Virus record (IMG/VR): IMGVR_UViG_3300043411_001777
Location: 142,090 to 206,089 of that record
Reading direction: 5' to 3' (one strand)
Length of the DNA: 64,000 bases
From: a virus
Part shown: in pieces, positions 4,690 to 46,147 of the stretch
Layout: every line of letters starts with the position of its first letter
Position numbering within the stretch: position 1 is the stretch's first letter
The notes under the pieces: model-generated
What the model saw: the letters and a program-made list of their open reading frames with translations, nothing else
What the model was told of the DNA's origin: nothing
The model's database searches: none
Translations under genes and position numbers: made by a program

Positions 4690-4692
4690 CAG

Positions 4693-20796: not shown

Positions 20797-23700
20797 TTAC
20801 AGGCGGCTTCTGATCGCGAGCACGACTCGAACGTATAGGAGGGGGAACACGGGGGCAAAAAATGCAGAAACCACAACCCTTGTTGGATCAACGGGGTCAA
20901 CGGTTGCCTTGATTCCCGTGTATGCCACGATGATTTGAGCCTGCACGAGACCCTTCAATAGGGCCGCGATTTCGCCTTCAATCTGGGGCAGAATTCCGGG
21001 AAGGAACTTGACACCGATGAACCTATCCAAGACCGAACGAATGCGCTTCTGCACATCATCAGCGATGAGCTGAATCTCGGGCAAGGTCTTAAGCTTCTCG
21101 TCCCGATTCTGGTGAGTCGTCCAAGCGTCACGGACCCGAATGAAGGGCGAGCGCTCTTCCAACACAACCATTCCGGACTGTGCGAGATTATTCATCTCGG
21201 GCACTGTTAGCCGACGAGGAAGCCGACTAAACCCACGAAGCCTACGCCCAACCCAAGGTGTTGCTACGTCCACCTGAGGTGCCGTCACCGAACCCACCAG
21301 AGCCGCAGCTACGTAGTAGCCGTCCAAGAAATGCTCACGCTGGGCACCCTGTGCATCCTCCAACACGATTGTCGCAGAATCTGGGTACACCACCCGCATA
21401 CGGGGGTCGTTCAGCGTACGAGCCGAAATCATGGCCCTGTCAGGGGTCATGCCGGCGCTGTAGCCGATAATGGAGGTCCGCTCCGACTCATACCGAGGGG
21501 ACGACATCTTGGCGTTGCTACGCTGTAGCAGCGTGAACAACGTATCGCTGTCTCCACGAAGAGGAGTGATAATGTCAGGGTTGGTATTGCCTGCAAGAGG
21601 CCCTTCCAACTCATCCAATGCCGCACGATACGAGGTAAGCGAAGCTTGCTGCGAGCCCGTCTCACGAGGAACTTGCTTAAGTCCGATGACCACCGCACCG
21701 TTCACGAAGGCCAAGTAAGCCGCCAGCGAAAGCGGGTTGTCCGGAGAAAGAGCACCGAAGGCCCTTTCCACGGCTGCCTGCTTGGAGTAGAACTTCGTCT
21801 TGAAGTCCTCCTTCGTGTAGCTGTAGGACACGTAGTAGAGATCCCCAACCGAAGGCTCGGACCCACCACGCTCATGCGTGGTGACAAGAGCCGTATCTCC
21901 GATAGTGGTATTGGCCGTATTTGCCACCTTCAATTCGACACCACCAAGAGCCCGATGAGGGATATTGGCATTTGTCAAAAATGACGTGGAGACCGTAAAC
22001 CGGAACGTGGCGTTACCGCCCGTTGGGTAAGCCTGCCATGGGCCCGAAGGATTAGCATTGAACCCACGAGGAAGAACCGTAAACGTCAAGCCTGTGACCG
22101 AGTCACGGTAGGTCTGACCAACAATACCATCCTGCCCGGTTCCATTGTTCAGCACCGACTCGTTGATAGAACCCGAACCGTCAGGATTCGAGCTGACCAC
22201 GAAGAACCCGTCAAGAGCAGCCTCGCCAACCGCACCATCCCCATCCTCTGCAAAGAGGCCCGTATTGTAGGAAAGAACGCTGTCCGTGACAACGCTTCCA
22301 ACCGTGGGGTCCTTGATAAGGACGATAGATGCCGCCCCAATTCCGCTAGCCGTCTCACCCAAGCTCTGAATGTGGAGGTACTCATTACCCGCATCGTCTG
22401 CCAAAACATCGGCCAATGCCAAAGTGGCAAAGGTCTCGTTTGGTGAGGCGTTCTCCGCACCGAAGTCGAAAGCCCAAGAGGCAAAAGTCGTGTGCCGATA
22501 CTCGTTCAAGGCCGAAGCCAGCACGCGAGCATCAACCAGAACCCGCTGGCCCGCCGCACCTTCAGTGAAGCCCAACTTGGTGTTTGCCACACCGTTACCG
22601 ATGACCACAGTCCCAGCAACCGTGGACTCGCCACTAACTAGGCGGATTCCAGCACCTTCCTGGACGACATAACCGGCTGCAAAAACTGCCGCCGCGTTTG
22701 CGCCGAAAGGAGAGCCCGCAATCCCTGCCATAGCATCGATGATCTGATCAATCACCGACCCATTGGAGGTTCCAGCGGCCGGGCCCAGAGGAGTTGCCGT
22801 GCCCGTGTCCGTAGACGTAAAGTTTACGGTGACTGCCGTCCCATCCAAGGTGAACTTGAAGGTGTCGTTGGCAGCTTGGGTCCCCGAACCATCATAGAAA
22901 GTGACCAGCGGCTGAGCATTGGAATTCATCCCACCAGCGAAGCCCACCTCTCCTAGGAGAGACGCCTTCTGGACAACAGCGCCAGCACCACCCATACCAA
23001 AGTCATTGACTGTCAAACCAGCCTTGGTGTTGCCCGAACCCGCGCGAACAACCAAAGCCATCTGGTCGAGTGCGTTCTGAGGGTGGATAGAACCACTTCC
23101 AAAAGCGTTCGGGACAATACGGTTACGGAGCATGAGCCGATCATAGGGCTTATTGCTCGTCCCAGACATAGTCTTTTCGTAAGACTTTGCGATGGGACCC
23201 TGGATCAAAATGGTCTGCCCAGCACCGAAGGTTGCTGCTGTGTCCAAACCTGCGAGGACACAGAAATCGACCGCTTCCGAAGCTCCCGTAAGGAACTGGA
23301 GAGCACCCGCGCTATCTACACCCGGAAGACGAACACTGAACTCCAAGCGCCCGTCGGCGTCGGCCACACAGTAAATCTTAAGTCCTGCGAGGGTTACGTC
23401 CCCACCAATTGCTGTTGCAACACTGGTGTCAATTGCGGACTGAACCTGAGCTGCCAACAGCGCCGCAGTTGCGAACGGACCGTTTCCGAGGTCAACAGTG
23501 TCACTGTAGGAGTGACCACTATCTCCCGTAAACTGTAGCTTCAGCTTGTCGTGCTTATTGACGGCCAGCGTAGTAGACCCGTTGAACTTCGTAGCACCCT
23601 TCAACACCGCAAGGGTGTCTGGATTGTAGATGCGATACTCGTCCGCAGAAGTAACAGCACCGCCGTCCCAAGCGGCTACGGTTGCCACTCCAGTGGAGGC

Positions 23701-26421
23701 GACATAATCCGTAACGGTACGAACCTGGCCCGCCGATGCCCGTAGCGCGAGAGCGATACGAATTGCGTTGCTGGAGGTCACCGTTGTTGGGTGTCCAGAC
23801 AAGGTCACAACAGCAAGGGTACCACCGCCATTTGTTGCAGTAACCGTTCCGCCATTAAGGGCTGTGTTGAACAACGCCTGAGCAGCAGCATGGTTAATTG
23901 CCGCCACCAGCGAGGTAGCATCCTGAATATCAGTGCCCGACTGGTCGAAAATTTGGCTCGCAAGGGTAGGAGCCCCAGCCGCTGTAAACACGACACCAGC
24001 AATAGTGATCGTATCTGCAACGCTGACGTTAGCAAGAGTTGCCGTTCCAATATCCGCACCCTCGCCAATTACCACCACCCAATCGTTGTAGTAATCGTCA
24101 ATCCCAGTTCGAACAGCCGCCTCAAGGGTAATGGTCGTCGTGGTTCCACCAGCCGCCGTTCCCTGGTGCCCGTTAGCAGCCTCATTCAAAGCGTCAACGA
24201 ACACACCGATGTCAACACCGTTCTGGGCTTCAACCCGAGCAGTAATCTCGACCCCGTCTACATTGAGGTTGACTTCCTCAGTTGCCGTCAAGGAGTACGA
24301 CTGACCTACCGTCGAACCGGTTCCACCTGTATAGGCAATCTCATCGGAGACGAGAACCGCAGGGAAACCTCCACCGTGAGTCGTGGGGTTGGAGAGATCC
24401 AAACCACCGACACCAGCAAGAAGCTCTTCCGAGTCCACCACAACCCGGAACTTATCCGACTGCCCCTCAATGATTTCGTAGGGGCCAGAACCAGGGAAGG
24501 TGTAACGGGCGGGCGAAGCATCACGCGCCGCAAACTGCACTGTCACAACTTCTGCAACCGGGCCCGTAAAGTCCGCACCCGAGACACCCTCAAAATGCAC
24601 GTCCGGGGTTAGTTCCGAACCACTGGGAAACTCCAACGTCACATTGGTGAGGGAGGAACCCTTCGTTGCCGTCGAGAAAGCAGCTCCGTAAAGCAGCTCC
24701 CCATCACTGTCCGCAATGGTGTACCGACCAGTTCCAGAAGCCCCCACCGCCGTAACAGCTAGGGTGAACTCCCCGTCGCCAAGCTCATTGTAGTAGAAGC
24801 TGGCATAGACGGTTGCGCCGACAGCCACTTCTTCGGCCAGGGTGATTGTGGAACCCTCAACCGAGATAACGTCCACCGGACCGCGCACAAGCGCATCCTG
24901 CACACCAAATCCCCAGTATGCCTTGACAACATCGGGACGGTTTGCAGGCACGTCGATACGATCATTTGCGACCGTCTGGAACAGACTGGAGCCCAATTCC
25001 GTTGCCCGACCATTTCCAAGAGTCGGCGTGAACGGGAGCAAGAATGCTGTCTTGCTCGCCACACTGCGCCCACTGCTAGAGGTGGTGGTTGCCGTGCAAG
25101 GCGTCAAATAGGTGCGGCTATCGATGAGGGTAGCCGTGATTTGCTGGCTGCCAAACTCAACCGAGCTTGTAGAAGCAGACTCATCCGCGTCTACAACAAC
25201 ACCCGTACCCCAAACGATCTTGTCGTCGCGCAGGATGAAATCCGCGCCCTGGATATAGTCACTCGACCCGGGGACTGTACCCACCCGCTCAACAGAGGTA
25301 ATTCCGTAGTTGGCGAGGTAATCAAACGTATCCTGCCACGTGTTGTGGTAATACGTGATCTTGACACTAGCCCCAACAGCCGGGGCGACTGCAAGGGTAA
25401 CCGCACGAGTTGCACCGTCCACGGACTCAACCGTGACCGTGACATTGTCAACCTTAGCCAAAACCTTCGTGGGGTCCGTAGTGGTCAGACCGCCATTAGA
25501 ACCATCAACGATAGGACCGTTGAACGTGTAGAATGTCCGACGACGAGTATCCCCCTGCCCGAAGGCGAACCCAAGGAGTGCATTAGCACTTCCGGAACCC
25601 ACCGACAAGCTCTGGTCTGCCTGCAAAAGCAAAGCTGACTTACCGAAGTTGTTGACAAAAGTGGAAGCCTCTAGTGTTCCAGCAGAGGCACTCGACAACA
25701 CCAGGGCAACCTCCGCCATCGTGTAATCAGCACGCTCGGGGATTTCAATGTCAAACTCAACCCCGTCAACAGTGATCGTAAAGACGTTGTTGTTTTCCAC
25801 AACAACGTTGTCATCCACGTCAAGCTGGTCGGCGTAAAAGTCTAAAGTCTCCGTGCCAGAAACGTCTTCGTCGGAAATGCCGCTCTGAGCCCGAACCTTT
25901 GCATTCTCAGGCGAGACCTGAGCAGAGACATCATCCGTCTGGAGAGTGTCTTTGCGGTTGAAGAAGTAGGTGCACCGCACCAAATCCGTCGATAGGATCG
26001 CCTGGGCCAACTCAACAACACCCGTCGCACCAGCAACGGAGCGAACGATAACCGGGTCGCCATTGACGGTGACCTTAACATTCTCCGCCGCATTCGTGGT
26101 AACCCCACGACCATTCCCCGTCACGATTGGGAAATTCGTTACCCGGAATTTGGTAGCTGTGCCATTCCAATTCCCAAGCGTCAACTGACCGGTCCCAGCA
26201 GCAACCGCAAGAACCGCGTGCCCAGTCTGGTCCTCACCCACAACCTGTTGGTCGACAGAGGAAGAAGACCCGCGAACGACTTCAAGGTCACGCTGGCTCA
26301 GCGTCTCCGAGCCCTCACCGATAAAAACAGGCAACTTGAGCGCATCGAGGGCACCGCTAATCGGGTTCTCGAAATTGGTCTCAGTCTTTACACCTGGGGA
26401 TTCGTACACTTCATTCGCCAT
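20797..26421 (-). CDS. Tail sheath protein with very large insertion
   Basis: 1874 residues. The first 65 residues (ending shortly after the VYESPGVKTE motif and PVFIGEGSETLS) and the last 330 or so (from AFGALSPDNPLSLAAY through MISARTLNDPRMRVVYPDS, VGRRLRGFSRLPRRLT and the end) look like the conserved core of contractile tail sheaths. Between them lie roughly 1450 residues of beta-rich segments, at least five of them variants of one module with a T-or-N-x-DGV strand followed by a helical VAAINHAA-type block. Sheaths usually have about 400-700 residues. The start has GGTGGG upstream. It is followed by a strong hairpin and then the tube gene. Extra domains probably decorate the tail surface. 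Confidence 0.85.
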   Translation of the reverse strand: MANEVYESPGVKTETNFENPISGALDALKLPVFIGEGSETLSQRDLEVVRGSSSSVDQQVVGEDQTGHAVLAVAAGTGQLTLGNWNGTATKFRVTNFPIVTGNGRGVTTNAAENVKVTVNGDPVIVRSVAGATGVVELAQAILSTDLVRCTYFFNRKDTLQTDDVSAQVSPENAKVRAQSGISDEDVSGTETLDFYADQLDVDDNVVVENNNVFTITVDGVEFDIEIPERADYTMAEVALVLSSASAGTLEASTFVNNFGKSALLLQADQSLSVGSGSANALLGFAFGQGDTRRRTFYTFNGPIVDGSNGGLTTTDPTKVLAKVDNVTVTVESVDGATRAVTLAVAPAVGASVKITYYHNTWQDTFDYLANYGITSVERVGTVPGSSDYIQGADFILRDDKIVWGTGVVVDADESASTSSVEFGSQQITATLIDSRTYLTPCTATTTSSSGRSVASKTAFLLPFTPTLGNGRATELGSSLFQTVANDRIDVPANRPDVVKAYWGFGVQDALVRGPVDVISVEGSTITLAEEVAVGATVYASFYYNELGDGEFTLAVTAVGASGTGRYTIADSDGELLYGAAFSTATKGSSLTNVTLEFPSGSELTPDVHFEGVSGADFTGPVAEVVTVQFAARDASPARYTFPGSGPYEIIEGQSDKFRVVVDSEELLAGVGGLDLSNPTTHGGGFPAVLVSDEIAYTGGTGSTVGQSYSLTATEEVNLNVDGVEITARVEAQNGVDIGVFVDALNEAANGHQGTAAGGTTTTITLEAAVRTGIDDYYNDWVVVIGEGADIGTATLANVSVADTITIAGVVFTAAGAPTLASQIFDQSGTDIQDATSLVAAINHAAAQALFNTALNGGTVTATNGGGTLAVVTLSGHPTTVTSSNAIRIALALRASAGQVRTVTDYVASTGVATVAAWDGGAVTSADEYRIYNPDTLAVLKGATKFNGSTTLAVNKHDKLKLQFTGDSGHSYSDTVDLGNGPFATAALLAAQVQSAIDTSVATAIGGDVTLAGLKIYCVADADGRLEFSVRLPGVDSAGALQFLTGASEAVDFCVLAGLDTAATFGAGQTILIQGPIAKSYEKTMSGTSNKPYDRLMLRNRIVPNAFGSGSIHPQNALDQMALVVRAGSGNTKAGLTVNDFGMGGAGAVVQKASLLGEVGFAGGMNSNAQPLVTFYDGSGTQAANDTFKFTLDGTAVTVNFTSTDTGTATPLGPAAGTSNGSVIDQIIDAMAGIAGSPFGANAAAVFAAGYVVQEGAGIRLVSGESTVAGTVVIGNGVANTKLGFTEGAAGQRVLVDARVLASALNEYRHTTFASWAFDFGAENASPNETFATLALADVLADDAGNEYLHIQSLGETASGIGAASIVLIKDPTVGSVVTDSVLSYNTGLFAEDGDGAVGEAALDGFFVVSSNPDGSGSINESVLNNGTGQDGIVGQTYRDSVTGLTFTVLPRGFNANPSGPWQAYPTGGNATFRFTVSTSFLTNANIPHRALGGVELKVANTANTTIGDTALVTTHERGGSEPSVGDLYYVSYSYTKEDFKTKFYSKQAAVERAFGALSPDNPLSLAAYLAFVNGAVVIGLKQVPRETGSQQASLTSYRAALDELEGPLAGNTNPDIITPLRGDSDTLFTLLQRSNAKMSSPRYESERTSIIGYSAGMTPDRAMISARTLNDPRMRVVYPDSATIVLEDAQGAQREHFLDGYYVAAALVGSVTAPQVDVATPWVGRRLRGFSRLPRRLTVPEMNNLAQSGMVVLEERSPFIRVRDAWTTHQNRDEKLKTLPEIQLIADDVQKRIRSVLDRFIGVKFLPGILPQIEGEIAALLKGLVQAQIIVAYTGIKATVDPVDPTRVVVSAFFAPVFPLLYVRVVLAIRSRL
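23791..24045 (-). repeat. Portable beta-module, sheath copy
   Basis: Codes for a segment beginning ANVSVADTITIAGVVFTAAG and running through GTDIQDATSLVAAINHAAAQ to TNGGGTLAVVTLSG. It is closely similar, also visibly at DNA level, to segments at 44430-44700 and 45565-45815. The boundaries are approximate. It is one of several related modules inserted into the sheath. Confidence 0.8.
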
Positions 26422-26442
26422 GATCCCACCTCTGAAGGAAAC

Positions 26443-26865
26443 TTAGGGCTCTCTACGTTTTATCTGACTCATAGCCAGAGAATTGACACGATCCTTAATA
26501 GGCATTTCATGCGACTGCATAATCCGATAGGAACCGTCCGCTGATTTAGCTAAATCCTCTTTTGTCTTTCCTGGGTTTCCACGCAGAATACGTTGCTTCT
26601 CCACGTTCCTCTTTTCGATGGTTTCCCATCCCTGTTCACTAGAACGACCAATAACACGATCAATGTGTGTGTCTAAATCGTGTATCCCGGTGTTCTGAGG
26701 GCCTGCCCCTTTAACCGCTTGGTTAAACACCCCTGAAATCGTATCCGGCATAAGAGGTTCCAGGACGGTTTTACAGCTTGGGCAGGGCTTACTGCGTGCT
26801 GAGATAGGAGCAGCCTTTTCCCACTTAACTCCACATGCTTCACATTTGTAATTGTAGACTGGCAT
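26443..26865 (-). CDS. FmdB-like zinc-ribbon protein
   Basis: 140 residues. The N-terminus MPVYNYKCEACGVKWEKA with CPSC about 20 residues later forms a four-cysteine zinc ribbon like the FmdB family. The rest is charged and helical without a known domain. A paralog with the same N-terminal design is encoded at 46144-46515. It lies between sheath and a neck-like gene in a morphogenesis operon; family members are widespread in phage genomes but their role is not settled. AAGGTGCGAA precedes the ATG and gives a plausible ribosome-binding site. Confidence 0.7.
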   Translation of the reverse strand: MPVYNYKCEACGVKWEKAAPISARSKPCPSCKTVLEPLMPDTISGVFNQAVKGAGPQNTGIHDLDTHIDRVIGRSSEQGWETIEKRNVEKQRILRGNPGKTKEDLAKSADGSYRIMQSHEMPIKDRVNSLAMSQIKRREP

Positions 26866-26873
26866 TTCGCACC

Positions 26874-28076
26874 TTACCGGAGCATTTCAAAGGTTCCGGT
26901 CCGCCCAGACCAGAATGGATCTTCCCACGTCTCTAGCCCCAATGCTTCTAAAGCCTGAAGACGGCCTTCTGAATAAGCATATGCAGCAAGCTGGTCGTCA
27001 TTCAGACCTGCAATCTGAGCCATTTCTAGCGCAGTATGCCACCCAGCAGAACGGATGTATTTGTCTAGAGGGACGTGGAGGGACCAATGTGCCTCTACAC
27101 TAACTGACACCGCCGACACGTAAAGATAGTCGTCTCCAGCCTCATCGTACACTTCTTCAGACTCACCAGAGAACTGCACGTCTATAATGTTGAGACCTTG
27201 TGCTGCCAATTCAGACCGGCGCACTGCCCACAAGTACATCGTGGTTTCATCGGCTAGTACGGACCTATCATGTAAGTCCGTGGACGTGATATCCAGATCC
27301 AAATTGATCTGCCACAACCCACCAAACTCCAAAGCCGTTGGTTGTCGGACAGAAGACACCACAACAGCGGCTTGATCTCCTACCTCAATCTTTCTGCCAA
27401 AAGCCAGCACCACACCCGGCAATGCTTGATTATTGGCATTCATGGGGTAAAGCTTGATCGGGTCCGTCGTCCCAGCGAAATACCGGTAATCGGCTTCCAA
27501 ATATCGATTCGCAGGTAATGCCTCGGCAAGGGTAACCCTCCCAGTTGGCTTACCTTGCCCATCCTTCTCGATAGTGTAGTTCACTCCTTCGTAGAGGAGA
27601 AACCGCGCCGGCATCTCATACAGCCGCAATGAGCCCGCATGAGGAGCCTGGGCAAGCTGAACTTCCAGTACATCAGGAATCAAAGGTTCCGCGTATACGT
27701 CATAGAATTTGTCTATCACGTACTCATCATCACTGATTACCTCAATGTAATAGGCGCCTGGAGGTGTGGGGAAAGCACCGTCATTGTTTTGGATGGCTCT
27801 AGCGTCTTCGCGAACCCATTCCAAAAAAACACCCGGCTTGTTCCGTATCTTAGTGGCCTGGCAATAGGAGTAGATGACCCCAAGGTAATTGTCCGCACTC
27901 AGATCAACCCGTGATCCACCAGACACACGGACGATAATTGAAGACTGTGGCCGCGTATCAAACCGATAGGAGCCAGAAATGACCAAACGATCCCTGAAAT
28001 TGGGATCATGAGACCAATAGCGCCTCAACTCTTCGATTATGCGCCTTTTTACGGCCTCTGTTAGCTGGAAGTACAA
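26874..28076 (-). CDS. Virion-associated protein upstream of the tail sheath, TTG start
   Basis: 400 residues with mixed helix and beta content and no enzyme signature. The N-terminal helix (EAVKRRIIEELRRYW) and following strands, plus the location immediately before the zinc-ribbon and sheath genes, suggest a tail-terminator or neck protein. The only in-frame initiator near the 5' end is TTG at 28076, which lies at the very edge of a 14-base perfect hairpin whose loop carries GGGAGAGG. Initiation from TTG behind that structure may keep expression low or regulated. Confidence 0.5.
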   Translation of the reverse strand: MYFQLTEAVKRRIIEELRRYWSHDPNFRDRLVISGSYRFDTRPQSSIIVRVSGGSRVDLSADNYLGVIYSYCQATKIRNKPGVFLEWVREDARAIQNNDGAFPTPPGAYYIEVISDDEYVIDKFYDVYAEPLIPDVLEVQLAQAPHAGSLRLYEMPARFLLYEGVNYTIEKDGQGKPTGRVTLAEALPANRYLEADYRYFAGTTDPIKLYPMNANNQALPGVVLAFGRKIEVGDQAAVVVSSVRQPTALEFGGLWQINLDLDITSTDLHDRSVLADETTMYLWAVRRSELAAQGLNIIDVQFSGESEEVYDEAGDDYLYVSAVSVSVEAHWSLHVPLDKYIRSAGWHTALEMAQIAGLNDDQLAAYAYSEGRLQALEALGLETWEDPFWSGRTGTFEMLR

Positions 28077-28116
28077 ATCGAGTTATCCCTCTCCCTTCCA
28101 AGGGGATAACTCGATT
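28076..28116 (-). promoter_or_regulatory. Intercistronic hairpin with purine-rich loop
   Basis: AATCGAGTTATCCC pairs perfectly over 14 bases with its complement around a 13-base loop. On the minus strand the loop carries a Shine-Dalgarno-like purine run and the 3' arm ends at the TTG start of the next gene. It may terminate transcription after the 53-residue gene, regulate translation of the neck-like gene, or both. No T run follows. Confidence 0.6.
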
Positions 28117-28118
28117 AT

Positions 28119-28280
28119 TCAAGAGGCCTTGCTCTTCCGCTTCTTAGGCTCTTGAGCGGGCTCCCCCACCACTTCGGGTGCTGGCTGTGTCTTAGGGCGT
28201 AGAGGTGCCCCCTTAACGTCTTCGGCTGCCACAACAGGCCGGGTCAACTGATCTGCCTTACGATGCTTACGAACTTTCAT
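28119..28280 (-). CDS. Small basic protein of 53 residues
   Basis: An ATG at 28280 overlaps the stop of the upstream gene as ATGA and opens a 53-codon frame ending at 28119. The peptide starts MKVRKHRKADQLTR, has a Pro-rich middle and ends in a Lys-rich PKKRKSKAS tail. It is positively charged and probably unstructured, so nucleic-acid or virion binding is possible. It lies last in the helicase-containing operon, just ahead of a strong hairpin. No family was recognised. Confidence 0.6.
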   Translation of the reverse strand: MKVRKHRKADQLTRPVVAAEDVKGAPLRPKTQPAPEVVGEPAQEPKKRKSKAS

Positions 28281-28909
28281 TTCCTGAGCCCCTTTTTAAC
28301 GGACGCGTGTATCTGAGCTATCAGCTCATTCCTTACTAACTGAAATATACGCTGTTTAGCTTTGGCAATCGCTCGTGGCAGAAAGGTGAACTTAGCGATC
28401 CCCGGGTGAATCCAGGCATCCGACATCTTCATCGGCGCTGAGCGAAAAATGATTTGACCATTCCGACCCTTAAGTGGGACGATCAAAGGCAGGCGATTAC
28501 CCCGCCCAATACGCCCCCGTCTTCGTTCGGAGGGTGTTATCCGATAACGTTCAGGGTGCTGCTTCTTAGCCTCTTGTGTGAGCCAAGGCATTTTCCTGGA
28601 AGGAATGTTGCTTTTCGTCAACTGTACAATCCCCCAGAAATTGGATTTGATGGTGACCGTCCGCTCTCCAGTAATCTCATACCAGAATGCCTTATTCAAA
28701 GCGAGAGGGCGCTTTATCGGCTTTGTGGGGTCAGCGCCTTCCCGAGGCGCACGCTTTAGTGACCACCCGCGTTTAGCGAAGTCAGCTTTGATCTCCGCAA
28801 TCAGAGTGCTAATCAACACCTTGCCTATACGGTGTAACAGCTCATCCCCAAGGTCAATGTCTAACTTACCTGACCACTGGCCCGCATAAACCGAGCGGAG
28901 GGTGCTCAC
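28277..28909 (-). CDS. Putative tail-completion (HK97 gp10-like) protein
   Basis: 210 residues from GTG at 28909, chosen because it overlaps the upstream stop as GTGA and has AGAAGGA seven bases before it; longer in-frame starts would overlap the neighbour by 55 bases. The protein is basic with a C-terminal pattern of AWIHPGIAKFTFLPRAIAKA followed by an amphipathic helix, reminiscent of HK97 gp10-type tail-completion proteins, which share an HPG-x-x-x-x-x-FL pattern. The resemblance is short, so the call is tentative. Its operon position near other neck proteins supports a head-tail joining role. Confidence 0.4.
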   Translation of the reverse strand: MSTLRSVYAGQWSGKLDIDLGDELLHRIGKVLISTLIAEIKADFAKRGWSLKRAPREGADPTKPIKRPLALNKAFWYEITGERTVTIKSNFWGIVQLTKSNIPSRKMPWLTQEAKKQHPERYRITPSERRRGRIGRGNRLPLIVPLKGRNGQIIFRSAPMKMSDAWIHPGIAKFTFLPRAIAKAKQRIFQLVRNELIAQIHASVKKGLRK

Positions 28910-29187
28910 CCATGGTCCTTCTGCCACGTTGGCATAGCTTTTTTGGTGATCTGCATGCAATATGCAGAGTTGTACTTGCCATGGATCTTTTGCACCATCT
29001 CAAACAAAGCCTCACCCGGAGAATCACCCTCTCCTGAAAAGGAGCTATGGGTTCCATGCGTGCCGAAAGCGGCAAACCACCGCCCATTCTTAAACTCAAA
29101 CGTGGTCCCGCCCAAAATGCTAGTATCGTAAGGAACCCCAGCTCGTCGGGCCATAAAGGCATTTGCCACTTTTACTGCCATTTTCAT
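28906..29187 (-). CDS. Hypothetical 93-residue protein
   Basis: A compact mixed protein with the pattern FKNGRWFAAFGTHGTHSSFS followed by an amphipathic helix (GEALFEMVQKIHGK). It overlaps genes on both sides by four bases, so it is translated within the helicase operon. No family was recognised and no function is proposed. Confidence 0.65.
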   Translation of the reverse strand: MKMAVKVANAFMARRAGVPYDTSILGGTTFEFKNGRWFAAFGTHGTHSSFSGEGDSPGEALFEMVQKIHGKYNSAYCMQITKKAMPTWQKDHG

Positions 29188-33715: not shown

Positions 33716-33771
33716 ATCACGTCTCCCTAATGAAAACAGTTCCAACCTGAGGGCGGAATAACCACATTACC

Positions 33772-35426: not shown

Positions 35427-35460
35427 TGTAACCTCTTATCTGAGGCCAATTATCGGCATT

Positions 35461-36350: not shown

Positions 36351-36778
36351 GACTTACCCCCATAAGGAACCCGAACTACATGAGTAAGACCTTCCCACTC
36401 AGATTTAGCTAACGGGCCCACAACTAATACACGAATCTCGCTGTTAAGCATTTTTGCGACCATGTCTTTGGTCCCCTTTCCGCCCGGAAAGGCCACCCCA
36501 ATAATCGTATGGCCCTCTTCACGAAAGACCAAAAGCTTGTCGAGCATAGCGGAATTGCGCACCAGACCCGCAGCGTTACCCAACCGGTCCCATTCAGCCA
36601 TGACCGTAAGAAACGGATACCCCCTTTCCTTAGCCCATAGCTGTGCGAGTCTGTCTGCCCCTTTAGCCCCACCTTCTTGGATAGTGAATGGGGTTTTTGC
36701 ATAAAGCCGATCTAACAGACCCCACACAAAAGACTTATCCGCAAAGTTACGGCCTCCCGTAATCTGACAGTACAACAT
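36347..36778 (-). CDS. SLOG (DUF2493/YspA-like) nucleotide-binding protein
   Basis: 143 residues from ATG at 36778, which overlaps the ThyX-like stop by one base (TAATG). The Rossmann-like motifs ITGGRNFADKSFVW, IQEGGAKGADRLAQLWAKER and FPGGKGTKDMV match the SLOG/YspA family, with a conserved AEWDRLGNAAGLVRNSAML block between them. Family members bind nucleotides or ADP-ribose-type ligands. It lies between the MazG-like and ThyX-like genes. The ligand is unknown. Confidence 0.8.
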   Translation of the reverse strand: MLYCQITGGRNFADKSFVWGLLDRLYAKTPFTIQEGGAKGADRLAQLWAKERGYPFLTVMAEWDRLGNAAGLVRNSAMLDKLLVFREEGHTIIGVAFPGGKGTKDMVAKMLNSEIRVLVVGPLAKSEWEGLTHVVRVPYGGKS

Positions 36779-38070: not shown

Positions 38071-38072
38071 CG

Positions 38073-38234
38073 TTACTTCGTTTCCTTTGGAATGCCATTC
38101 TCGACAAGAGAACGCAACCACTGCTTGGTGGAAATAGGATTGTCTAACCGTTCAATGTGTTGAAGTAACATCACAACATGCTGTTTGCATTGCAGCAAAC
38201 AGAGCTGCTTTATTTGCTCTCTATCCTCATCCAT
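38073..38234 (-). CDS. Small helical protein of 53 residues
   Basis: ATG at 38234 follows the previous stop by nine bases with GTGAGG as a possible ribosome-binding site, and the frame ends TAA two bases before the ThyX-like start. The peptide begins MDEDREQIKQLC and contains LLQHIERL and SLVENGIP; it looks like a short helical protein. It fits exactly into the gap and has the same tight spacing as real genes around it. Function unknown. Confidence 0.55.
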   Translation of the reverse strand: MDEDREQIKQLCLLQCKQHVVMLLQHIERLDNPISTKQWLRSLVENGIPKETK

Positions 38235-38243
38235 GACAGAGCC

Positions 38244-38543
38244 TCACTTCTGGCAAGGGCAAGAAGTAGCCAGGGTAAACCAATTCCCGCACTTCAAACA
38301 TACTTGAGGTTGTTGGGCAAACGGTGTAAAGGTGGACGTTTGGACAAACGGCACATTAACCGAGGTTAGGTTAAAGAAGCTGTTGAATTTGTCTGCATAA
38401 TCCAGCAGTATCCGTAGGATATCGGGATTCACATCCCTATTCTCCTTCATCAAAGCCAACTGGGCCCCGACAGCCTCAAACCAAAGAGTGTGGTGCTCGG
38501 ACAAAGACCGAAACACCGTCCCCGAAGACTTTTCATCCGCCAT
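38244..38543 (-). CDS. Small protein with C-terminal zinc ribbon
   Basis: 99 residues. The N-terminal 70 residues are helical and polar; the C-terminus carries CLKCGNWFTLATSCPC, a four-cysteine zinc ribbon. It follows the von Willebrand A gene and precedes the small helical ORF. No family beyond the ribbon was recognised. Confidence 0.65.
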   Translation of the reverse strand: MADEKSSGTVFRSLSEHHTLWFEAVGAQLALMKENRDVNPDILRILLDYADKFNSFFNLTSVNVPFVQTSTFTPFAQQPQVCLKCGNWFTLATSCPCQK

Positions 38544-38552
38544 ACAAACCCC

Positions 38553-40883
38553 TTACTTTTCAACCGTGAAATACGCCGAGGAAGCAAAGACGGAAACGAG
38601 CCCGCCATCAGGAACCTCGAAAAAGGTCCCCTCCTTCTCCTCTTTCGAGAGCGCCAAGGCCGGATACTTCTGAGCCAATTCCTCAGCATTCATCACTGCT
38701 ACCCCATCCGGAACCAGCCCCGTTGCCCCAACCTGGAAAACAAGATCCCTAAACCCGGCGTAACAAGAATCGATCCAATTACCGATCTGGCGAAGCTCCT
38801 CATTAAGAGCGAGGACCCGATCGTCAGCGGACATAGCCTTTAGCGCCACGTATTCCTTGTCGAAAAAGGATGCGAATTCCTTATCCATGATGTCGTCCGC
38901 AGCATTAGGCTTGCCCTTCTTAGGAGGCCCCTTTTCTACCGAAACATCAGCATCCCAAATACCGTCCAACGTCGCCTTAACGGGCCCGCCACCCCGCTTC
39001 ATTACATAGCGAGCATCGAAGAAGGCATTACCCGACTTCATCTTGGATGCAGCCGTAAGCTCAACAGTACCCACCACAACCTCAAAAGAGGTACGGGCGT
39101 CCACCTCACCATTAGCGATCGCGTCCTCCAACTTAACGTAAGTATTAGTCGTCGGGAACGAAACGTAAAGGGAGGGGCTCAAGTAATGAGCCTTCAGCTC
39201 GGCAATCTGCTCCGCCGTGTATTCCGTGGACGAACCCTTCAAGGTCGCCTTCAAGAGCTTTTGACGAGCGGTCATCCTGAACAGCTCACGAACATCGTTA
39301 CCAGATGGGAGCTGGGCTGCCTTATCACCCACCACAGGGAATTCAGACAGCGCGATCTTTACGGGCGCGTTCGGGTCAAACCCATCCACAGGCACGAACC
39401 CAGCCTTCGCTAGACAGGCCCAGGCTCGCTTGTTAGACACCTTCACCATTAGGTGAGAAGCATTGACCGCACCATCACCCACAATCGTGTAGGCGCGGAA
39501 ATCCGACAGCTTTAGAGGGATGCCCGCAACCTCATGGATGGGCTTGCCGGTCTTCCGGTTCACCAGCTCAATCGCTTGAGCGATTGTGATGTTTGCCGTC
39601 GGGCTACTGCGGTTCACATCTACAGACGTGACCGACACCCACTCATCAGTCCCAACGGGCTCCGTTTTGAGCGTGGGCTCTTCCAAAGAACCGTCCTCTT
39701 TCCGGATACCCGCAACCCGCTTTAACCCACGACGCTTATAGATAGACTGCAAGTCGGGCAGGTTAATCCGGATGGAATCCTTGTTAGCTTCCAAGATATC
39801 CAGGAAGTCCAACACAGAGGACCCGCCGAACCCAGGAACCCCATAATTACACACCTCGTCGAGAACCGTGTTGAAGACACGGAACTCGCAAGCCTCAGCA
39901 AAGGCCGCCAAATCTGGGTTGGTCAACGCCCGATAATTGTCCAGGGTGAACTTCTTATTCCGAGTCGAACACAGGGCAAACTTAGCCTGATTGATCAGGC
40001 CTTCCGACAAGGAAGCCTTAATGAAGGCACATAGCGCCTTCATATCGATATCCTGAGCGTCGGAAGTTGTTCCCGTCACCTTATAGAAGCGCAGGATTCG
40101 AGCCCCTTCTGGGCTGGCACCCCTAACGGTCAGGGCATTACGGCTTCCAAGAATCTTCTTATCCGCATTTGACACATACACCACAAAATCGGCACCCTCA
40201 GTAGGGATTTCGATTGTGGGTACAGTCTTACCTGCCAACTGACTAAACCCAGCGTGCAAGCCCTCGTATACCTGCTTCGCATTTTTGGCCCGAATCGTCG
40301 ACCCACTCAGCTTGTTACTGATGCTCGCGAGGAACTGAAAATCACAGTAGTCACTGTAACCTATGGTATTGACGAATACTCCGGGGTGCTTTTGGAGAGC
40401 CTGGACGTATAGATCCACGTCCCTACGCTCTGTCGTAGGGGAATAGTCGTTAGCATAACCATCCGTGTGGAGAGAAATGCACGTCAGCTCACCCTCCCGA
40501 ACAAGAGATTCCGCAAGCTTTAGGCTCTGCGAGATACAGGTCATTGCCGTTGCACGAATGCTACGAAGTTCCTTTAGGAAGGAACTGCCCGCCTGCACAA
40601 TTTCGGCTACGGGAACACGGGAGAAATGAAGCTTGACGTCCCCATGAGACGAATAGGAAATGAGGGAGACTAGCATTTCCGGCGTGTGGAATTCTTCCAA
40701 CGTCAGGAGCTTTTCGATCATAACCTTTGCATCATCGATAGAGCCATACATCGAACCAGAACGGTCGATATCGATGATATGGTGGCCGGGTTGAGCCGTT
40801 GCCTGGAGCTGTGGGACAGGCGACTCCACCGCCTGCCAAAAAGAATGGATCTGCCCATCGTACTTCCGAAGTGTAAACTGCAT
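38553..40883 (-). CDS. von Willebrand factor A domain protein
   Basis: 776 residues. Residues about 30-235 form a vWA domain: IIDIDRSGSMYGS gives the metal-binding D-x-S-x-S (Asp40, Ser42, Ser44), ATAMTCIS supplies the conserved Thr and SLHTDGYAND the later Asp. The remainder has beta-rich and helical segments without a known enzyme motif. vWA proteins usually act in metal-dependent protein-protein assembly, often with AAA+ partners; no AAA+ partner is visible next to it. It is flanked by a zinc-ribbon gene and a neck-like gene. A virion or assembly role is inferred from context only. Confidence 0.85.
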   Translation of the reverse strand: MQFTLRKYDGQIHSFWQAVESPVPQLQATAQPGHHIIDIDRSGSMYGSIDDAKVMIEKLLTLEEFHTPEMLVSLISYSSHGDVKLHFSRVPVAEIVQAGSSFLKELRSIRATAMTCISQSLKLAESLVREGELTCISLHTDGYANDYSPTTERRDVDLYVQALQKHPGVFVNTIGYSDYCDFQFLASISNKLSGSTIRAKNAKQVYEGLHAGFSQLAGKTVPTIEIPTEGADFVVYVSNADKKILGSRNALTVRGASPEGARILRFYKVTGTTSDAQDIDMKALCAFIKASLSEGLINQAKFALCSTRNKKFTLDNYRALTNPDLAAFAEACEFRVFNTVLDEVCNYGVPGFGGSSVLDFLDILEANKDSIRINLPDLQSIYKRRGLKRVAGIRKEDGSLEEPTLKTEPVGTDEWVSVTSVDVNRSSPTANITIAQAIELVNRKTGKPIHEVAGIPLKLSDFRAYTIVGDGAVNASHLMVKVSNKRAWACLAKAGFVPVDGFDPNAPVKIALSEFPVVGDKAAQLPSGNDVRELFRMTARQKLLKATLKGSSTEYTAEQIAELKAHYLSPSLYVSFPTTNTYVKLEDAIANGEVDARTSFEVVVGTVELTAASKMKSGNAFFDARYVMKRGGGPVKATLDGIWDADVSVEKGPPKKGKPNAADDIMDKEFASFFDKEYVALKAMSADDRVLALNEELRQIGNWIDSCYAGFRDLVFQVGATGLVPDGVAVMNAEELAQKYPALALSKEEKEGTFFEVPDGGLVSVFASSAYFTVEK

Positions 40884-40904
40884 ATTGGTGCCTTGTAAGT
40901 TGAG

Positions 40905-40982
40905 TTATGTCCTTAAGTGGACTTTCAACTTTACCGGACACCCACCACAATCGCACTCAGAACGTTGGTTTTTCAGAGCCAC
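40905..40982 (-). CDS. Possible 25-residue cysteine-rich microprotein
   Basis: In the 100-base gap upstream of the vWA gene, a GTG at 40982 opens a 25-codon frame containing SECDCGGCPVKLKV. The C-x-C-x-x-C spacing is zinc-binding in character. The start lacks a well-spaced ribosome-binding site, so this could be chance. The same gap holds an imperfect AAGTTGA inverted repeat. Confidence 0.25.
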   Translation of the reverse strand: MALKNQRSECDCGGCPVKLKVHLRT

Positions 40983-40983
40983 C

Positions 40984-41877
40984 TCAAATGTAAGACCGCG
41001 GAGAAAGTACCCCACGACCCAATCTTGGGCCCATCGCGCTCGTTAATCCGATTCCAAACCGAGGTTGTGAGAGACCCTTAATGTACTTGACGGTCTCTTT
41101 CTTCGTCTCTTTAGCTGATTCCATTCGGCCGTTTGCCAGCTCAGCCAAAGATTGGAATTTGTCTGCCTTAGAGATGTCAAGGCTAACCCCTCCAATACTG
41201 TACGAAAATTCGTCCTGGACCCAATTTACAGCCAAAGCAAACATGGCCCAATGAACAGCGCTCCAAAAGACGGGTGTACGCCACGCAGCTTGCTGTTGAA
41301 CCAATTGGTCAAGTCCGGGGATAAAAGTCCTCGGAGCCTCCATATTCCACCAATCTAAGCCCATCCGCAGGTACAGCTCTAACTCGTAATCCTCCCAGAC
41401 ACGACCGAAAATGCGGTTGTAGCTGCCGATCCTAGCCTCGTGCTCGGGAGGTCTGAAATGATAAAACTGATCAGGCGCCTGGTCCCGAATTAGGATCCTC
41501 AAATCCCTTATAAGTTGAGTAGTTGCAGCGCTATAGCCAACCGTGGATAGCTGCCCCTCTCCAACAACGGTGAATTCCTGAGCCACCAATTGAACCGTGG
41601 ACCCGGCATTCTGTTTGAACGTCCACTTAATCCGATATGTCCCTGATTGGGCGGTAGAAGGCACATGGAAATGCGCGTAGTATTCTCCAACGATTGGATT
41701 TTCCGGAGTCCGAGTTGCGGACCCAATCAACACTTCTGCCTCAGGGGGCCCTACATCCACGAGATAGATCGCATAGGTTATCTCATAAGCGTTTGTGGGG
41801 TTGTCATCGGAATCCTCCAAAAAGATGGTGAGGTCTCCGCGTTCCGTGGTGTCTCCTGGTTCAAACGAGCTGGCCAT
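40984..41877 (-). CDS. Neck-type protein with Ig-like N-terminal domain
   Basis: 297 residues from ATG at 41877 with GGGGGAAGA directly upstream; a longer ORF start is not supported. Residues 1-110 look like an Ig-like beta sandwich (GDLTIFLED, then EYYAHFHVP and GTYRIKWTF), and the rest is helical with many aromatic residues (DWWNMEAP, FWSAVHWAMFALAVNW). This two-part layout is common in head-tail connector or tail-associated proteins. A hairpin separates it from the decoration-like genes. Specific role unknown. Confidence 0.5.
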   Translation of the reverse strand: MASSFEPGDTTERGDLTIFLEDSDDNPTNAYEITYAIYLVDVGPPEAEVLIGSATRTPENPIVGEYYAHFHVPSTAQSGTYRIKWTFKQNAGSTVQLVAQEFTVVGEGQLSTVGYSAATTQLIRDLRILIRDQAPDQFYHFRPPEHEARIGSYNRIFGRVWEDYELELYLRMGLDWWNMEAPRTFIPGLDQLVQQQAAWRTPVFWSAVHWAMFALAVNWVQDEFSYSIGGVSLDISKADKFQSLAELANGRMESAKETKKETVKYIKGLSQPRFGIGLTSAMGPRLGRGVLSPRSYI

Positions 41878-41891
41878 TCTTCCCCCTAAAC

Positions 41892-41928
41892 GGAAAAGGC
41901 TTTGTTGGTTCAAAACAAAGCCTTTTCC
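41892..41928 (-). terminator. Hairpin terminator after the decoration-like genes
   Basis: GGAAAAGGCTTTGTT and its exact complement form a 15-base stem around a seven-base loop. Because the stem ends in A-rich and T-rich stretches it could function in either direction. It sits between the 299-residue paralog and the neck-type gene and probably separates their expression. Confidence 0.7.
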
Positions 41929-41952
41929 AGCAATTCCTTATGTCAGTCGGTC

Positions 41953-42852
41953 TTAGATTTCGTTACCGAGATAATCGTATACTACCAGCACTTCATGGGC
42001 TCCCGTAGCTGGGAGCGCATTACCTGCCAAGTCCGTAGCACGGGGCCGTAGGGAGGTAACCTCACCAGCCGCATATGCGAAATTCGGATTCTTGAAGGTC
42101 ATGGACCCCTTCATCACAGAAAGATCCCCAACCGCAGCCGACGCATTCAACGAGGTGTTGCGGTAAAAGCGGGGAATGTTTCGGAACCCGGACTCATCCA
42201 CCGCTATGAAGCGGCCTGCTTCATAGTAGGTTGAAGTTGCGTTATCGACGGCCGTAGCCCGTTCCGCAGCCGTACGGAACGTCCCACCGTTTGTTGCAAT
42301 GATGGTGTTCTTGGCGACGATATAAACTTCACCAGAAAGGATGCGTAGGATTTCTTCTACGGTCCCAAAAGAGTCTCCCTCAGCAAGGCCGGAAGAAGCT
42401 ACAACACCAGCGAGCGCGGCATCGATAGCAGCTTCAGTTAGCGGGGTTCCCGCCTCAACAAGCGCAAGGATAGCTTCCGCCATATCCAGAGCTTGTGCTG
42501 GGGTGCATACAGCACCCGCTGCGCCAGCGTCAATACGCTCCCGTAGGTACGCGACCAACCCGTAATCAGCACGGGTCGTGACGTCACTGTCCGCACCGCC
42601 ACCATCAGTATCAGCATCCGCCAATACGACTAGCGTCCGGGTCATCCGGCTTCCCGAAACATAGGCCACCCCAGTGCTATCGAGCACCGTAGCACCAAGT
42701 TGGTCAGCGCCTTGTGGCAGGTATCCGGACTGACCGACGGGGTCGATCGAAGAATTACGCTGTGAGGTGTTGGGCTGAAGATCCTTCAAATGGATATTCA
42801 TTCCCACCACATCATTCCGGCGTGGAACAATGTAGGCCCGTAGAACTGACAT
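41953..42852 (-). CDS. Decoration-like structural protein, paralog A
   Basis: 299 residues, one of three adjacent paralogs. The shared signatures are an N-terminal LKDLQPNTSQRNSSIDP motif and a mid-protein EEILRILSGEVYIV helix-turn. The rest is beta-rich with no enzyme motif. A strong GGAGG precedes the ATG, and the gene begins at the stop of paralog B (TAATG). Tandem expansion and high-expression ribosome-binding sites suit abundant surface or decoration subunits, but a tail-fibre role is not excluded. Confidence 0.6.
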   Translation of the reverse strand: MSVLRAYIVPRRNDVVGMNIHLKDLQPNTSQRNSSIDPVGQSGYLPQGADQLGATVLDSTGVAYVSGSRMTRTLVVLADADTDGGGADSDVTTRADYGLVAYLRERIDAGAAGAVCTPAQALDMAEAILALVEAGTPLTEAAIDAALAGVVASSGLAEGDSFGTVEEILRILSGEVYIVAKNTIIATNGGTFRTAAERATAVDNATSTYYEAGRFIAVDESGFRNIPRFYRNTSLNASAAVGDLSVMKGSMTFKNPNFAYAAGEVTSLRPRATDLAGNALPATGAHEVLVVYDYLGNEI

Positions 42853-43745
42853 TAGACACCTCCAATGACATTGCCGTCATCATCGTAAACAACAACACCG
42901 CGCGCAATTCCTGTAGCAGGGATATGCCCTCCCCCAATATCAAGAGCGGTTCCAGCAGCACCATAGGTGAAACCTTCATTGATCCAGGCGAAGCCATCAT
43001 CAACAAGGTGGCTTAGCTGCCCCTCTGCAACGGACATATGCAGCTCACCACAATCGATAATCGTCCGCAACTTACGGAAAGTAACATCCTGGGTTCCGGA
43101 CTGTGTTGCCGCAGGAATGCTGACAATGCTAGTCTTATTGTACTTGAACCCGCCAGCAATGGACTTAGTCAAGTTCGGCGCTGTTACGAAAAAGCCGACG
43201 GGTGTATGAGTTGCGCCAGTGCCGGGGAAGGCCCCGCCAGCCCCGGAAACTGCCGAACTTGCAGGAAGCTTGTACACTTCACCACGAAGAATTCGCAGAA
43301 CGCCAGCAACCGAACCCGTGGACTCGGAGTTAGCCACCGTGCCGTCAAGGTCCGAGTTGGAGACACCCGCAAACGCATTGATTGCGGTGTTGATGTCGCT
43401 AAGCGTGAGGGGGTTGCCCGCAGCAACCTCATCCAAGATGAGGGCGGCAATTCCATTTGCCATAGTCGCGGTTAGCGTATCATTTGCACCGGCCCCGACC
43501 ATCTCGACATTATCGATCAAGTAAGCGGCGAGGCCGTAGTAGTCCGCATTGGTCTCCAATGCGCCACCACCGGCATCTGTAGTCGCTACTGTGTCATTCT
43601 GAACATAGTGCGACAGATACCCTGTCTGAGGGACAGGAGAGTATGCTGGAATACACTGACTGGAGTTAGGCACCAGATCAGTAATTTGGAGGTCATTTGC
43701 ATCCAAATCATTTCTAGCAAGGACGATATAGGCAAGATCCGCCAT
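42852..43745 (-). CDS. Decoration-like structural protein, paralog B
   Basis: 297 residues. It shares with its neighbours ITDLVPNSSQ near the start and VLRILRGEVYKL in the middle. AAGGAGAA precedes the ATG, giving a strong initiation site. The C-terminal 100 residues end with a beta strand pattern (GVVVYDDDGNVIGG) closely resembling the ends of paralog A (VLVVYDYLGNEI) and paralog C (RLVTVYADDGTLIA). The three genes therefore came from tandem duplication. Confidence 0.6.
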   Translation of the reverse strand: MADLAYIVLARNDLDANDLQITDLVPNSSQCIPAYSPVPQTGYLSHYVQNDTVATTDAGGGALETNADYYGLAAYLIDNVEMVGAGANDTLTATMANGIAALILDEVAAGNPLTLSDINTAINAFAGVSNSDLDGTVANSESTGSVAGVLRILRGEVYKLPASSAVSGAGGAFPGTGATHTPVGFFVTAPNLTKSIAGGFKYNKTSIVSIPAATQSGTQDVTFRKLRTIIDCGELHMSVAEGQLSHLVDDGFAWINEGFTYGAAGTALDIGGGHIPATGIARGVVVYDDDGNVIGGV

Positions 43746-43756
43746 GGAAATTCTCC

Positions 43757-44935
43757 TTATGCGATGAGGGTGCCGTCATCCGCATAGACGGTGACAAGCC
43801 GTTGGCTGGCCAAATTGACACCAGAAACAGTCAAAGCCTTCTGATACTGGCTAGGAATGAAATTCTGTACGTCACTATCGGGGAAGAGGGTCACGCCCGC
43901 AGTGAACCGTGCTAGATACCCAGCGCTCAGGCTCATTTGAAATGAAGTGCCATCCACAGTGCCGCGGATCGGCTTGCGCTCAACGGACTCGGTATCACCA
44001 GTAGCGAGCAACGGCCGAATCTCACCCTGAACCATCTGGCTGTCCCAAACAGTGCGGGTACGGGTAAAGGAACCCTGAACCACCGTGTTAAAAATGGTTA
44101 GAGGAAGGTCGGCCGCAACCAAAACTTGGCTGCCCTTGGGGAGGAAGTATTCCCGACCTGCAAGGATCGAAAGGATGTCTGCAACCGTTGCTGTAGATCC
44201 ACCACCAGTTAGACTGGTCCCGGCCACCACCGCTGCAAGAACAGTGTTGATATTCGAGGCCGCGAGGGCCTGGCCCGCGTCTACACGCGCAATCAGAGCC
44301 GCAGCAGCTTCGGCAAGGTCCGCAGCAGACCAGGCCATTGTTGCCTTTGTCAGGACTGCACTAGAAACCGCCAAACGGGTTCCGTTGGACGAAACCACCG
44401 TACCCTCTGTGAGGTACGTATTGTCCGAGCCACCCGCCGTGAGGGTAACCACCGCCAGGGTACCACCACCGTTAGTTGCAGTAATAGTCCGACCACCGCC
44501 AAGGGCCGCTGTGATTAGTGCCTGAGTTGCAGCGTGCTGCACCGCAGCAACAAAAGAGGTTGCGTCCTGGATGTCTGTCCCGTTCTGAGCAAACACCTGA
44601 TTTGGTAGGTCAGCCGCACCAGCCGCAGTGATTTCAACCCCGGCAATTGTTACCGTATCAGCAACGGATACGTTGGCGAGGGTGACCGTTGCAGTAGGAG
44701 CAACCGTTCCAGCGGGAACAACATTGTCTAGCAAATACGCCTGTAGGCCTCGCGCGTCAGCGACCGTCTTACCCGTTGTGGCACTGTAGCGGACGTTGTT
44801 GTTCTGAGCGCGGTTTACATACCGGTTCTGTGGGGGTGGATCAATAGACCCATTCCGCTGGGAAGCATTGGGGAGCAAGTCCCACAAATGGACAATTCCG
44901 TCGGGAAGATCATGTGCTAGACAAATGTATGGCAT
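43757..44935 (-). CDS. Decoration-like structural protein, paralog C, with inserted module
   Basis: 392 residues. It shares LWDLLPNASQRNGSIDPP and ADILSILAGREYFL with paralogs A and B but is about 95 residues longer because it carries the portable beta-module at residues about 80-170, beginning ANVSVADTVTIAGVEITAAG. TAGGAGTGG precedes the ATG. Removing the module would leave a protein of about 300 residues, the size of A and B, which shows that the module is an insertion. Confidence 0.65.
   Translation of the reverse strand: MPYICLAHDLPDGIVHLWDLLPNASQRNGSIDPPPQNRYVNRAQNNNVRYSATTGKTVADARGLQAYLLDNVVPAGTVAPTATVTLANVSVADTVTIAGVEITAAGAADLPNQVFAQNGTDIQDATSFVAAVQHAATQALITAALGGGRTITATNGGGTLAVVTLTAGGSDNTYLTEGTVVSSNGTRLAVSSAVLTKATMAWSAADLAEAAAALIARVDAGQALAASNINTVLAAVVAGTSLTGGGSTATVADILSILAGREYFLPKGSQVLVAADLPLTIFNTVVQGSFTRTRTVWDSQMVQGEIRPLLATGDTESVERKPIRGTVDGTSFQMSLSAGYLARFTAGVTLFPDSDVQNFIPSQYQKALTVSGVNLASQRLVTVYADDGTLIA
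44430..44700 (-). repeat. Portable beta-module, paralog C copy
   Basis: Encodes the segment starting ANVSVADTVTIAG and running through GTDIQDATSFVAAVQHAATQ to TNGGGTLAVVTLTAG. Closest relatives in the window are the sheath copy at 23791-24045 and the copy at 45565-45815. Boundaries are approximate. Confidence 0.8.
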
Positions 44936-44995
44936 ATTCCACTCCTATCAGCTCTCTAACCTAAGAGAAAGCTATAAACCGAAAAGCGCAGGTTT

Positions 44996-46147
44996 TTACT
45001 GCGAAGTCGAAGAATCGAGATTCGCCTGTACCGAAAATGACATTGGGGAAGCCCCCGCCGCAGCCAACACGATTTCCTTGAACCTCCCAAGAATTTCGAC
45101 GGTCTCACCTTGACCAATAGAGTACATGGGCAAACCCAACCCTAAGGAATACAAAAGGGTGCCAGACGTTTCGTTGTTCCGGATAAAGCCTTCTCGGCTT
45201 CCTCGTGGAAGAACAATATGAAGCGGGGGTGGGGTAGCAGAGGTCAAATCATACGCCGGGTAATTTCCTGAAGAACATCCCGTATTGGCGGGAGCCGTTC
45301 CGCCAAACGTATACGACGCCTCCGGCATCGTGAAAAAGTGCGCTGGAGGAACTACGTGAACCGGGCCCCAAATCGGGACACCTGTATTGACAGTGCCACC
45401 AACCGTTCTGGGAGACGTTAACACTTCCTGGAGACGGTAAAAGGCCATCTGGTCGTCGAACGGGACGTTACGGACAAAATCCAAGGTTCCACTAGAAACC
45501 GCTAACCGAACTCCGTTAGAGCTGACCACAGTTACGGCGTCGTAAGCCGCAGCCGTTGACCCTGCATAGAGAGTCACAACAGCCCCATCAGCAACAGCAG
45601 TAACGACCAAACCGCCGCCAATAGCCGCAGTGATTAACGCCTGACTTGCGGCGTGGTTAATAGCAGCAGCAAGGGATGTGGCATCTGCCGTATCCGTACC
45701 CCCCTGTGAGAAAATCTGATTCGGTAAGTCAGCAACACCCGCGGCTACAAAGTCAACCCCCTGAATGGTTACCGTGTCAGCGACGTTAACCGAAGCCAAC
45801 GTTACACTAGCTTTTGCCACAGAGCTGTTGTTTCCAATGAAATCTTCTACGTTGAACAGTGCCCGTGCTAAGCCCTTATTTCCCTCTCCGTATAGACCAA
45901 GCTTACGGTTGATGAAAGTCCTGCTCCGATAGTAACCGGACTTCGCCACCTGAAAAAGCTTAGTCGGGGTTCCAGTGCCCACTCCCGAAGTGATGAAATT
46001 GCCGTAGGCTTGATTGCAAGAATTAGCCACATACACATTCCAAGCCCTAACATTGGCTGGCTGTGCCTTGATGGTAATATCCAACCAATTGTTTTTACGG
46101 TCAATTAGACTGAACCCTTTCCCTATCGGCCCCCAATTATCATTCAT
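44996..46147 (-). CDS. Structural protein carrying the portable beta-module
   Basis: 383 residues. Residues about 112-195 are the shared module (SVNVADTVTIQGVDFVAAG, then DATSLAAAINHAASQ). N-terminal residues have an aromatic beta pattern and the C-terminus a Gly/Pro-rich barrel-like pattern (IVLPRGSREGFIRNN, TLLYSLGLGLPMYSIGQG). After the module it shares SSNGVRLAVSSGTL with paralog C. It overlaps the zinc-ribbon gene as ATGA. A virion surface role is inferred. Confidence 0.6.
   Translation of the reverse strand: MNDNWGPIGKGFSLIDRKNNWLDITIKAQPANVRAWNVYVANSCNQAYGNFITSGVGTGTPTKLFQVAKSGYYRSRTFINRKLGLYGEGNKGLARALFNVEDFIGNNSSVAKASVTLASVNVADTVTIQGVDFVAAGVADLPNQIFSQGGTDTADATSLAAAINHAASQALITAAIGGGLVVTAVADGAVVTLYAGSTAAAYDAVTVVSSNGVRLAVSSGTLDFVRNVPFDDQMAFYRLQEVLTSPRTVGGTVNTGVPIWGPVHVVPPAHFFTMPEASYTFGGTAPANTGCSSGNYPAYDLTSATPPPLHIVLPRGSREGFIRNNETSGTLLYSLGLGLPMYSIGQGETVEILGRFKEIVLAAAGASPMSFSVQANLDSSTSQ
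45565..45815 (-). repeat. Portable beta-module, third copy
   Basis: Encodes ASVNVADTVTIQGVDFVAAG through ATSLAAAINHAASQALITA to TLYAG. It is slightly more diverged than the sheath and paralog C copies. Boundaries are approximate. Confidence 0.75.

Follow-up and report, generated by a model that had tools for sequence, protein, structure and literature searches.

An inserted alpha/beta add-on domain in the tail sheath and two other proteins of an uncultured 206-kb phage

Outer add-on domains and the fold of the module

Several phage tail sheaths carry domains beyond the conserved core. The sheath extension domain of Milano spans residues 91–203 (PMC10811340), domain III of the Mu sheath reaches outward (PMC11915804), and the insertion domain of the XM1 sheath, which resembles FliD D3, was described as unique to XM1 and guessed to derive from the host flagellar cap (PMC10457771). 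Adhesion and stabilisation have both been discussed as roles for these extra domains (PMC9230969). A further class of add-on is formed by Ig-like domains, which are portrayed, where PMC9230969 and PMC10684548 cite Fraser et al. (2006), as promiscuous units that are swapped among phage structural proteins and thought to be placed on the surface.

The module analysed here lies in three proteins encoded in the window, which comprises the final 64,000 nucleotides of the virus record IMGVR_UViG_3300043411_001777 (206,089 bases; positions 142,090 to 206,089) from an uncultured phage. The three copies are one domain inserted in three proteins of one phage. Host genes, their paralogs and the copies are, in window positions:

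20797–26421, minus strand: tail sheath gene (1874 aa), carrying module copy 1, assigned by tblastn homology
20800–21846, minus strand: conserved sheath core, C-terminal part (residues 1526–1874), without module, assigned by tblastn to annotated sheaths
23749–24054, minus strand: module copy 1, sheath (P0001) residues 790–891, HMM E 3e-49
41953–42852, minus strand: paralog A, without module, a natural empty site by alignment
42852–43745, minus strand: paralog B, without module, a natural empty site by alignment
43757–44935, minus strand: paralog C (392 aa), carrying module copy 2, recognised by alignment with A, B and its counterparts in other phages
44351–44695, minus strand: module copy 2, C residues 81–195, HMM E 5e-59, with a predicted fold
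44996–46147, minus strand: 383-aa protein, carrying module copy 3, with module-bearing and module-free homologues in L016, L029, L031 and LR745208.1
45482–45814, minus strand: module copy 3, residues 112–222 of the 383-aa protein, HMM E 8e-55, pLDDT mostly 86–97

AlphaFold models of the module reach a pLDDT mostly of 86–97 in the 383-aa protein and of 66–96 in C, and the order of elements is the same in both hosts: three strands, a short strand, a helix of 17 residues, a helix of 5–6 residues, and further strands. Structure prediction thus gives one fold in two hosts, as the original prediction anticipated, although the fold is alpha/beta and not purely beta as its name for the module implied. 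With VIA-align, for which matches below Z 8 may reflect merely a common arrangement, the module matches the A-1(L) sheath (8kee) at Z 10.5/10.6 over 88–89 residues and 2.2–2.3 Å, followed by the sheaths of PhiTE (9cba, Z 9.7), Sf14 (8.9), Mu (8.2) and Milano (7.5). On these models the module is predicted to have the same fold as the solved outer add-on domains of sheaths (SED, domain III or InD), and, like them, it is inserted in a sheath. The solved examples sit in the body domain near residues 90–200; the module occupies residues 790–891 of the giant sheath, inside another add-on. Unlike these domains, it is also found in two non-sheath proteins, and a sequence search of the PDB with three module profiles returned no relevant match, the solved sheath domains included.

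Other known domains resemble the module to varying degrees. Region 141–249 of the T7-type nozzle (tail tubular protein B, gp12) has the module fold over ~85 residues (Z 8.4–9.1), but with 10–14% identity and in a different host protein. The XM1 insertion domain matches weakly (Z 4.7), and the outer domains of FliD and flagellin give Z 5–8, a range in which a common arrangement may suffice; the module, moreover, is found in phage proteins and not in flagella. The sole match to PF07196 (Flagellin_IN) in the record falls on a module copy, and membership of that family was rejected as its 11.5 bits miss the gathering cut-off of 22.7. An Ig-like domain was likewise rejected, given the helices of 17 and 5–6 residues between the strands and the lack of any Ig family match; the module resembles phage Ig-like domains in behaviour, not in fold. 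In the isolated Rhodobacter phage RcTitan, gp13 and gp17, two proteins of the structural gene block, have the same predicted fold but belong to a different sequence branch (HHalign probability 35). A viral structure-model library also yielded matches to proteins named major tail protein and major capsid protein. Because of its fold match to sheath outer domains, the module is best regarded not as an Ig domain but as a new sequence branch, and an unusually clear case, of a known type of phage add-on domain.

Host genes and likeness of the three copies

The first host, P0001, is a contractile tail sheath, as judged from the homology of its C-terminal core to annotated sheaths. By tblastn it is 43% identical to a sheath in LR745208.1 and matches the annotated Tunturi_5 tail sheath (E 7e-34, with 46% of the query aligned), and for its residues 1526–1838 there are matches to sheaths annotated in phages of Mycobacterium, Rhodococcus and Gordonia, including that of Phabba (E 2e-5). 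Paralogs A, B and C lie with the 383-aa protein in a block that is kept in the IMG/VR phages L016, L029 and L031 and is partly present in LR745208.1 (485 kb). None of these four proteins matched a known family, and for C and the 383-aa protein no annotated homologue turned up. For A, B and C, labelled decoration-like in the original prediction, no family match pointed to a known decoration protein, and outside the module the model of C is poor (mean pLDDT 56); the C-terminal part of the 383-aa protein is predicted to be jelly-roll/cupin-like (AF2 model, VIA-align). The original prediction placed the module in three virion proteins. The three hosts are borne out, and homology identifies the sheath as part of the virion, with C and the 383-aa protein as putative virion proteins.

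The neighbourhood of the block holds further genes of interest. Beside it lies a 776-aa von Willebrand A-type protein (38553–40883; phrog_2426 E 7e-24, VWA_2 just below cut-off). A SWIM zinc-finger-type protein adjoins the block in the window (46502–47821, with a Pfam match), L029 (3689–6577), L031 (4060–6516) and L038 (5540–7105), its length varying from 439 to 963 aa. Elsewhere in the window, a 1704-aa protein (7665–12779) has an Amidase_2 domain embedded near its N-terminus (residues 172–297) and is perhaps a tail-associated cell-wall hydrolase. L031 also carries an ORF with a sub-threshold intein-splicing match (14055–15032) adjoining a TnsA-like endonuclease ORF (13315–14055).

A profile scan of all six frames of the whole 206-kb record returned exactly three matches (E 3e-49 to 5e-59, the next at E 0.7), in the sheath, C and the 383-aa protein and nearly at the coordinates first given, and shuffled ORFs produced nothing below E 4.9. 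The module measures ~100–115 residues, longer than the 80–90 originally estimated. The protein copies share 57–64% identity when aligned together and 58–68% when compared in pairs, the latter with z of 25–34 over composition shuffles. The similarity in DNA that had also been pointed out amounts to 59–63% nucleotide identity, but codons at identical residues agree at 0.33–0.42 versus the 0.33–0.34 predicted from codon usage. Because this agreement is about what codon usage predicts, the DNA likeness adds nothing beyond that of the proteins, and the near-background codon identity indicates that the copies parted long ago and that selection has acted on the protein. More diverged copies had been suspected elsewhere in the sheath and at residues 620–715 of a giant protein at the left edge of the window, but they are unsupported: neither gave an HMM match, and HHalign against the module gave probabilities of 0.1 for giant-protein residues 600–740, 2.2 for sheath residues 195–300 and 6.3 for sheath residues 650–790, with a control at 99.9.

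Insertion sites, occurrence in other phages and descent

The insertions have sharp borders, which the original prediction had named as a sign in its favor, and each of the three genes has natural counterparts in which the site is empty. In the sheath, the module splits a second add-on domain into two parts:

24055–24144, minus strand: N-terminal half of the split add-on domain (TTTTITLEAAVRTGIDDYYNDWVVVIGEGA), sheath residues 760–789, unbroken in L054 and L055 and absent from LR745208.1
23617–23748, minus strand: C-terminal half of the split add-on domain (ALRASAGQVRTVTDYVASTGVATV...), sheath residues 892–935, from alignment with L054 and L055

The sheaths of the related phages L054 and L055 are 50–51% identical to P0001 over ~1745 residues, and the single difference of at least 15 residues is the module, with residues 790–878/891 missing. 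The insertion site is a loop within the receiving domain, whose unbroken form reads ...DDYYNGWLVVVGNGA / TAITAGSVGEVLDY..., and the junctions show no obvious conserved border DNA. The module is absent from all six other sheaths compared (L054, L055, LR745208.1, L013, L014 and L015). Because the LR745208.1 sheath is also without the outer add-on domain, the additions in the sheath are nested. A weak relative of the split DDYYN...AGQVRTVTDY domain (23617–24144 minus the module) in Mae-JY22, a Microcystis phage (E 4e-3), hints that portability may extend to the receiving domain.

Paralog C exceeds A and B by 93–95 residues, and the extra stretch is the module, in agreement with the earlier reading that C is about one module longer than its sisters. 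The insert comes after a conserved helix (GLxAYLxDxV) and before the next one; in alignments A and B lack it, as does the LR745208.1 relative of C. Taking the module out of C lifts the alignment score from 115.5 to 207.5 against B and from 81.5 to 188.5 against the LR745208.1 relative. The L016 relative of C contains about three module copies in tandem. The 383-aa family has five empty relatives (both L031 paralogs, P0010, the second L029 paralog and that of LR745208.1). Its insert stands before a DDQ motif in the window protein and after it in L016 and L029; these two sites imply at least two insertions in the family.

The module also occurs in other proteins of unrelated phages. In L041 it is inserted, between AKAHLRMD and DDALL, in a protein that matches TIGR02215 (93.8 bits against a cut-off of 39, E 1e-26) and phrog_442 (E 1.8e-17) and can be classed from these matches as an HK97 gp6-like head-tail connector. 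Another connector site is occupied in L026, L045 and L046, where the connectors were recognised by PHROG. In L025, L026 and others, the gene that immediately follows the major capsid gene encodes a module-bearing protein. The capsid genes of all these phages were labelled HK97-type from a reading of the sequence. Searches of Pfam, PHROGs and NCBIfam with module-bearing proteins gave no module family, only the weak leads phrog_7702 (E 0.31, sheath) and phrog_28344 (L049). A tblastn search of cultured phages found no match, although the low-complexity filter may mask one, and two pattern scans that covered 84,980 genomes of bacteria and archaea gave no confirmed module, though prophage copies may exist. 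In L049 (3300022690_000056), positions 3599–5944 encode 782 aa in which about seven related modules are arrayed. TGT accounts for 60 of the 61 Cys codons there, located where sister repeats have Ser, Ala, Asn or others, and these may be real cysteines, a sequence artefact or unusual decoding.

A 23-row module tree placed long rows poorly, and clade tests were therefore run on a 16-row set, in which rows were grouped by host protein only after the first tree had been viewed. Descent of the module with its host protein predicts clustering by host family, which was rejected for both families tested: p-AU was 8.7e-6 for the modules of the 383-aa family as one clade and 2.1e-4 for those of the C family. 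The module of L031 C instead joins the 383-type modules of L016 and L029 with support of 100/100. A clade of the three window copies is neither rejected nor supported (p 0.275); as they are not a supported clade, an origin of all three inside this genome is allowed but unproven.

Spread and possible role of the module

The module, with one predicted fold, has been inserted into, and reused in, unrelated host proteins. We favor an explanation in which this self-contained alpha/beta domain, inserted whole into loops of the sheath, C and the 383-aa protein, would have spread by recombination and would serve as a surface accessory, and taken as a whole we find this account reasonably probable. Within it, old recombination that spread copies between genes of one genome, or let them replace one another, followed by retention through selection on the protein, is quite probable. 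More tentatively, we suggest that the module may be an accessory present in many copies on the particle's exterior, where it could adhere weakly to surface polymers of the host or of the environment. It is also conceivable, at slightly less than an even chance, that the module is an exchangeable surface cassette that follows the genome and not the protein, moving repeatedly among the sheath, neck connector and capsid-associated proteins of a single phage, to several sites and even into other add-ons.

The same insertions could instead have a structural role, with neighboring modules packing together to cement the sheath or capsid surface. Stabilisation is offered as the alternative role for extra sheath domains in PMC9230969, two of the three host proteins come from families without known receptor roles, and a kept protein sequence with saturated synonymous sites is what packing surfaces would give. 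However, one packing interface is hard to fit to hosts as different in geometry as a sheath, a connector and capsid-adjacent proteins, and the tandem modules of L016 C favor display over packing; we consider cementing the main alternative, somewhat less likely than adhesion.

The remaining alternatives concern how the copies arose. Three copies in one genome at 59–63% nucleotide identity might suggest that the DNA was duplicated recently, or that a mobile in-frame element copied the module among the three genes, but synonymous positions near background, the lack of a nuclease-like part in the module and sheath junctions without obvious conserved border DNA make this very improbable. About as improbable is an ancestral module that each host protein had from the start and that sisters and relatives have since lost, with no insertion or spread. 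The single site across four phages in the C family would fit such losses; the six module-free sheaths, the two insertion sites in the 383-aa family, the clade tests and the presence of the module in three unrelated host proteins do not. Chance likeness of Ala/Thr-rich low-complexity sequence has some basis in the biased composition, but given the scores over shuffles, the empty scan of shuffled ORFs and structure models that are confident and consistent, its probability is practically negligible.

Extra sheath domains have so far been treated mostly protein by protein, and here a single sequence family turns up in several proteins that are unrelated to one another and for which clean empty sites exist. 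Because such sites exist across unrelated hosts, acquisition can be ordered, sites can be compared and function can be tested. Virus-particle proteins without common descent can take up one and the same add-on domain, and for annotators, a domain common to phage structural proteins need not imply common ancestry of those proteins.
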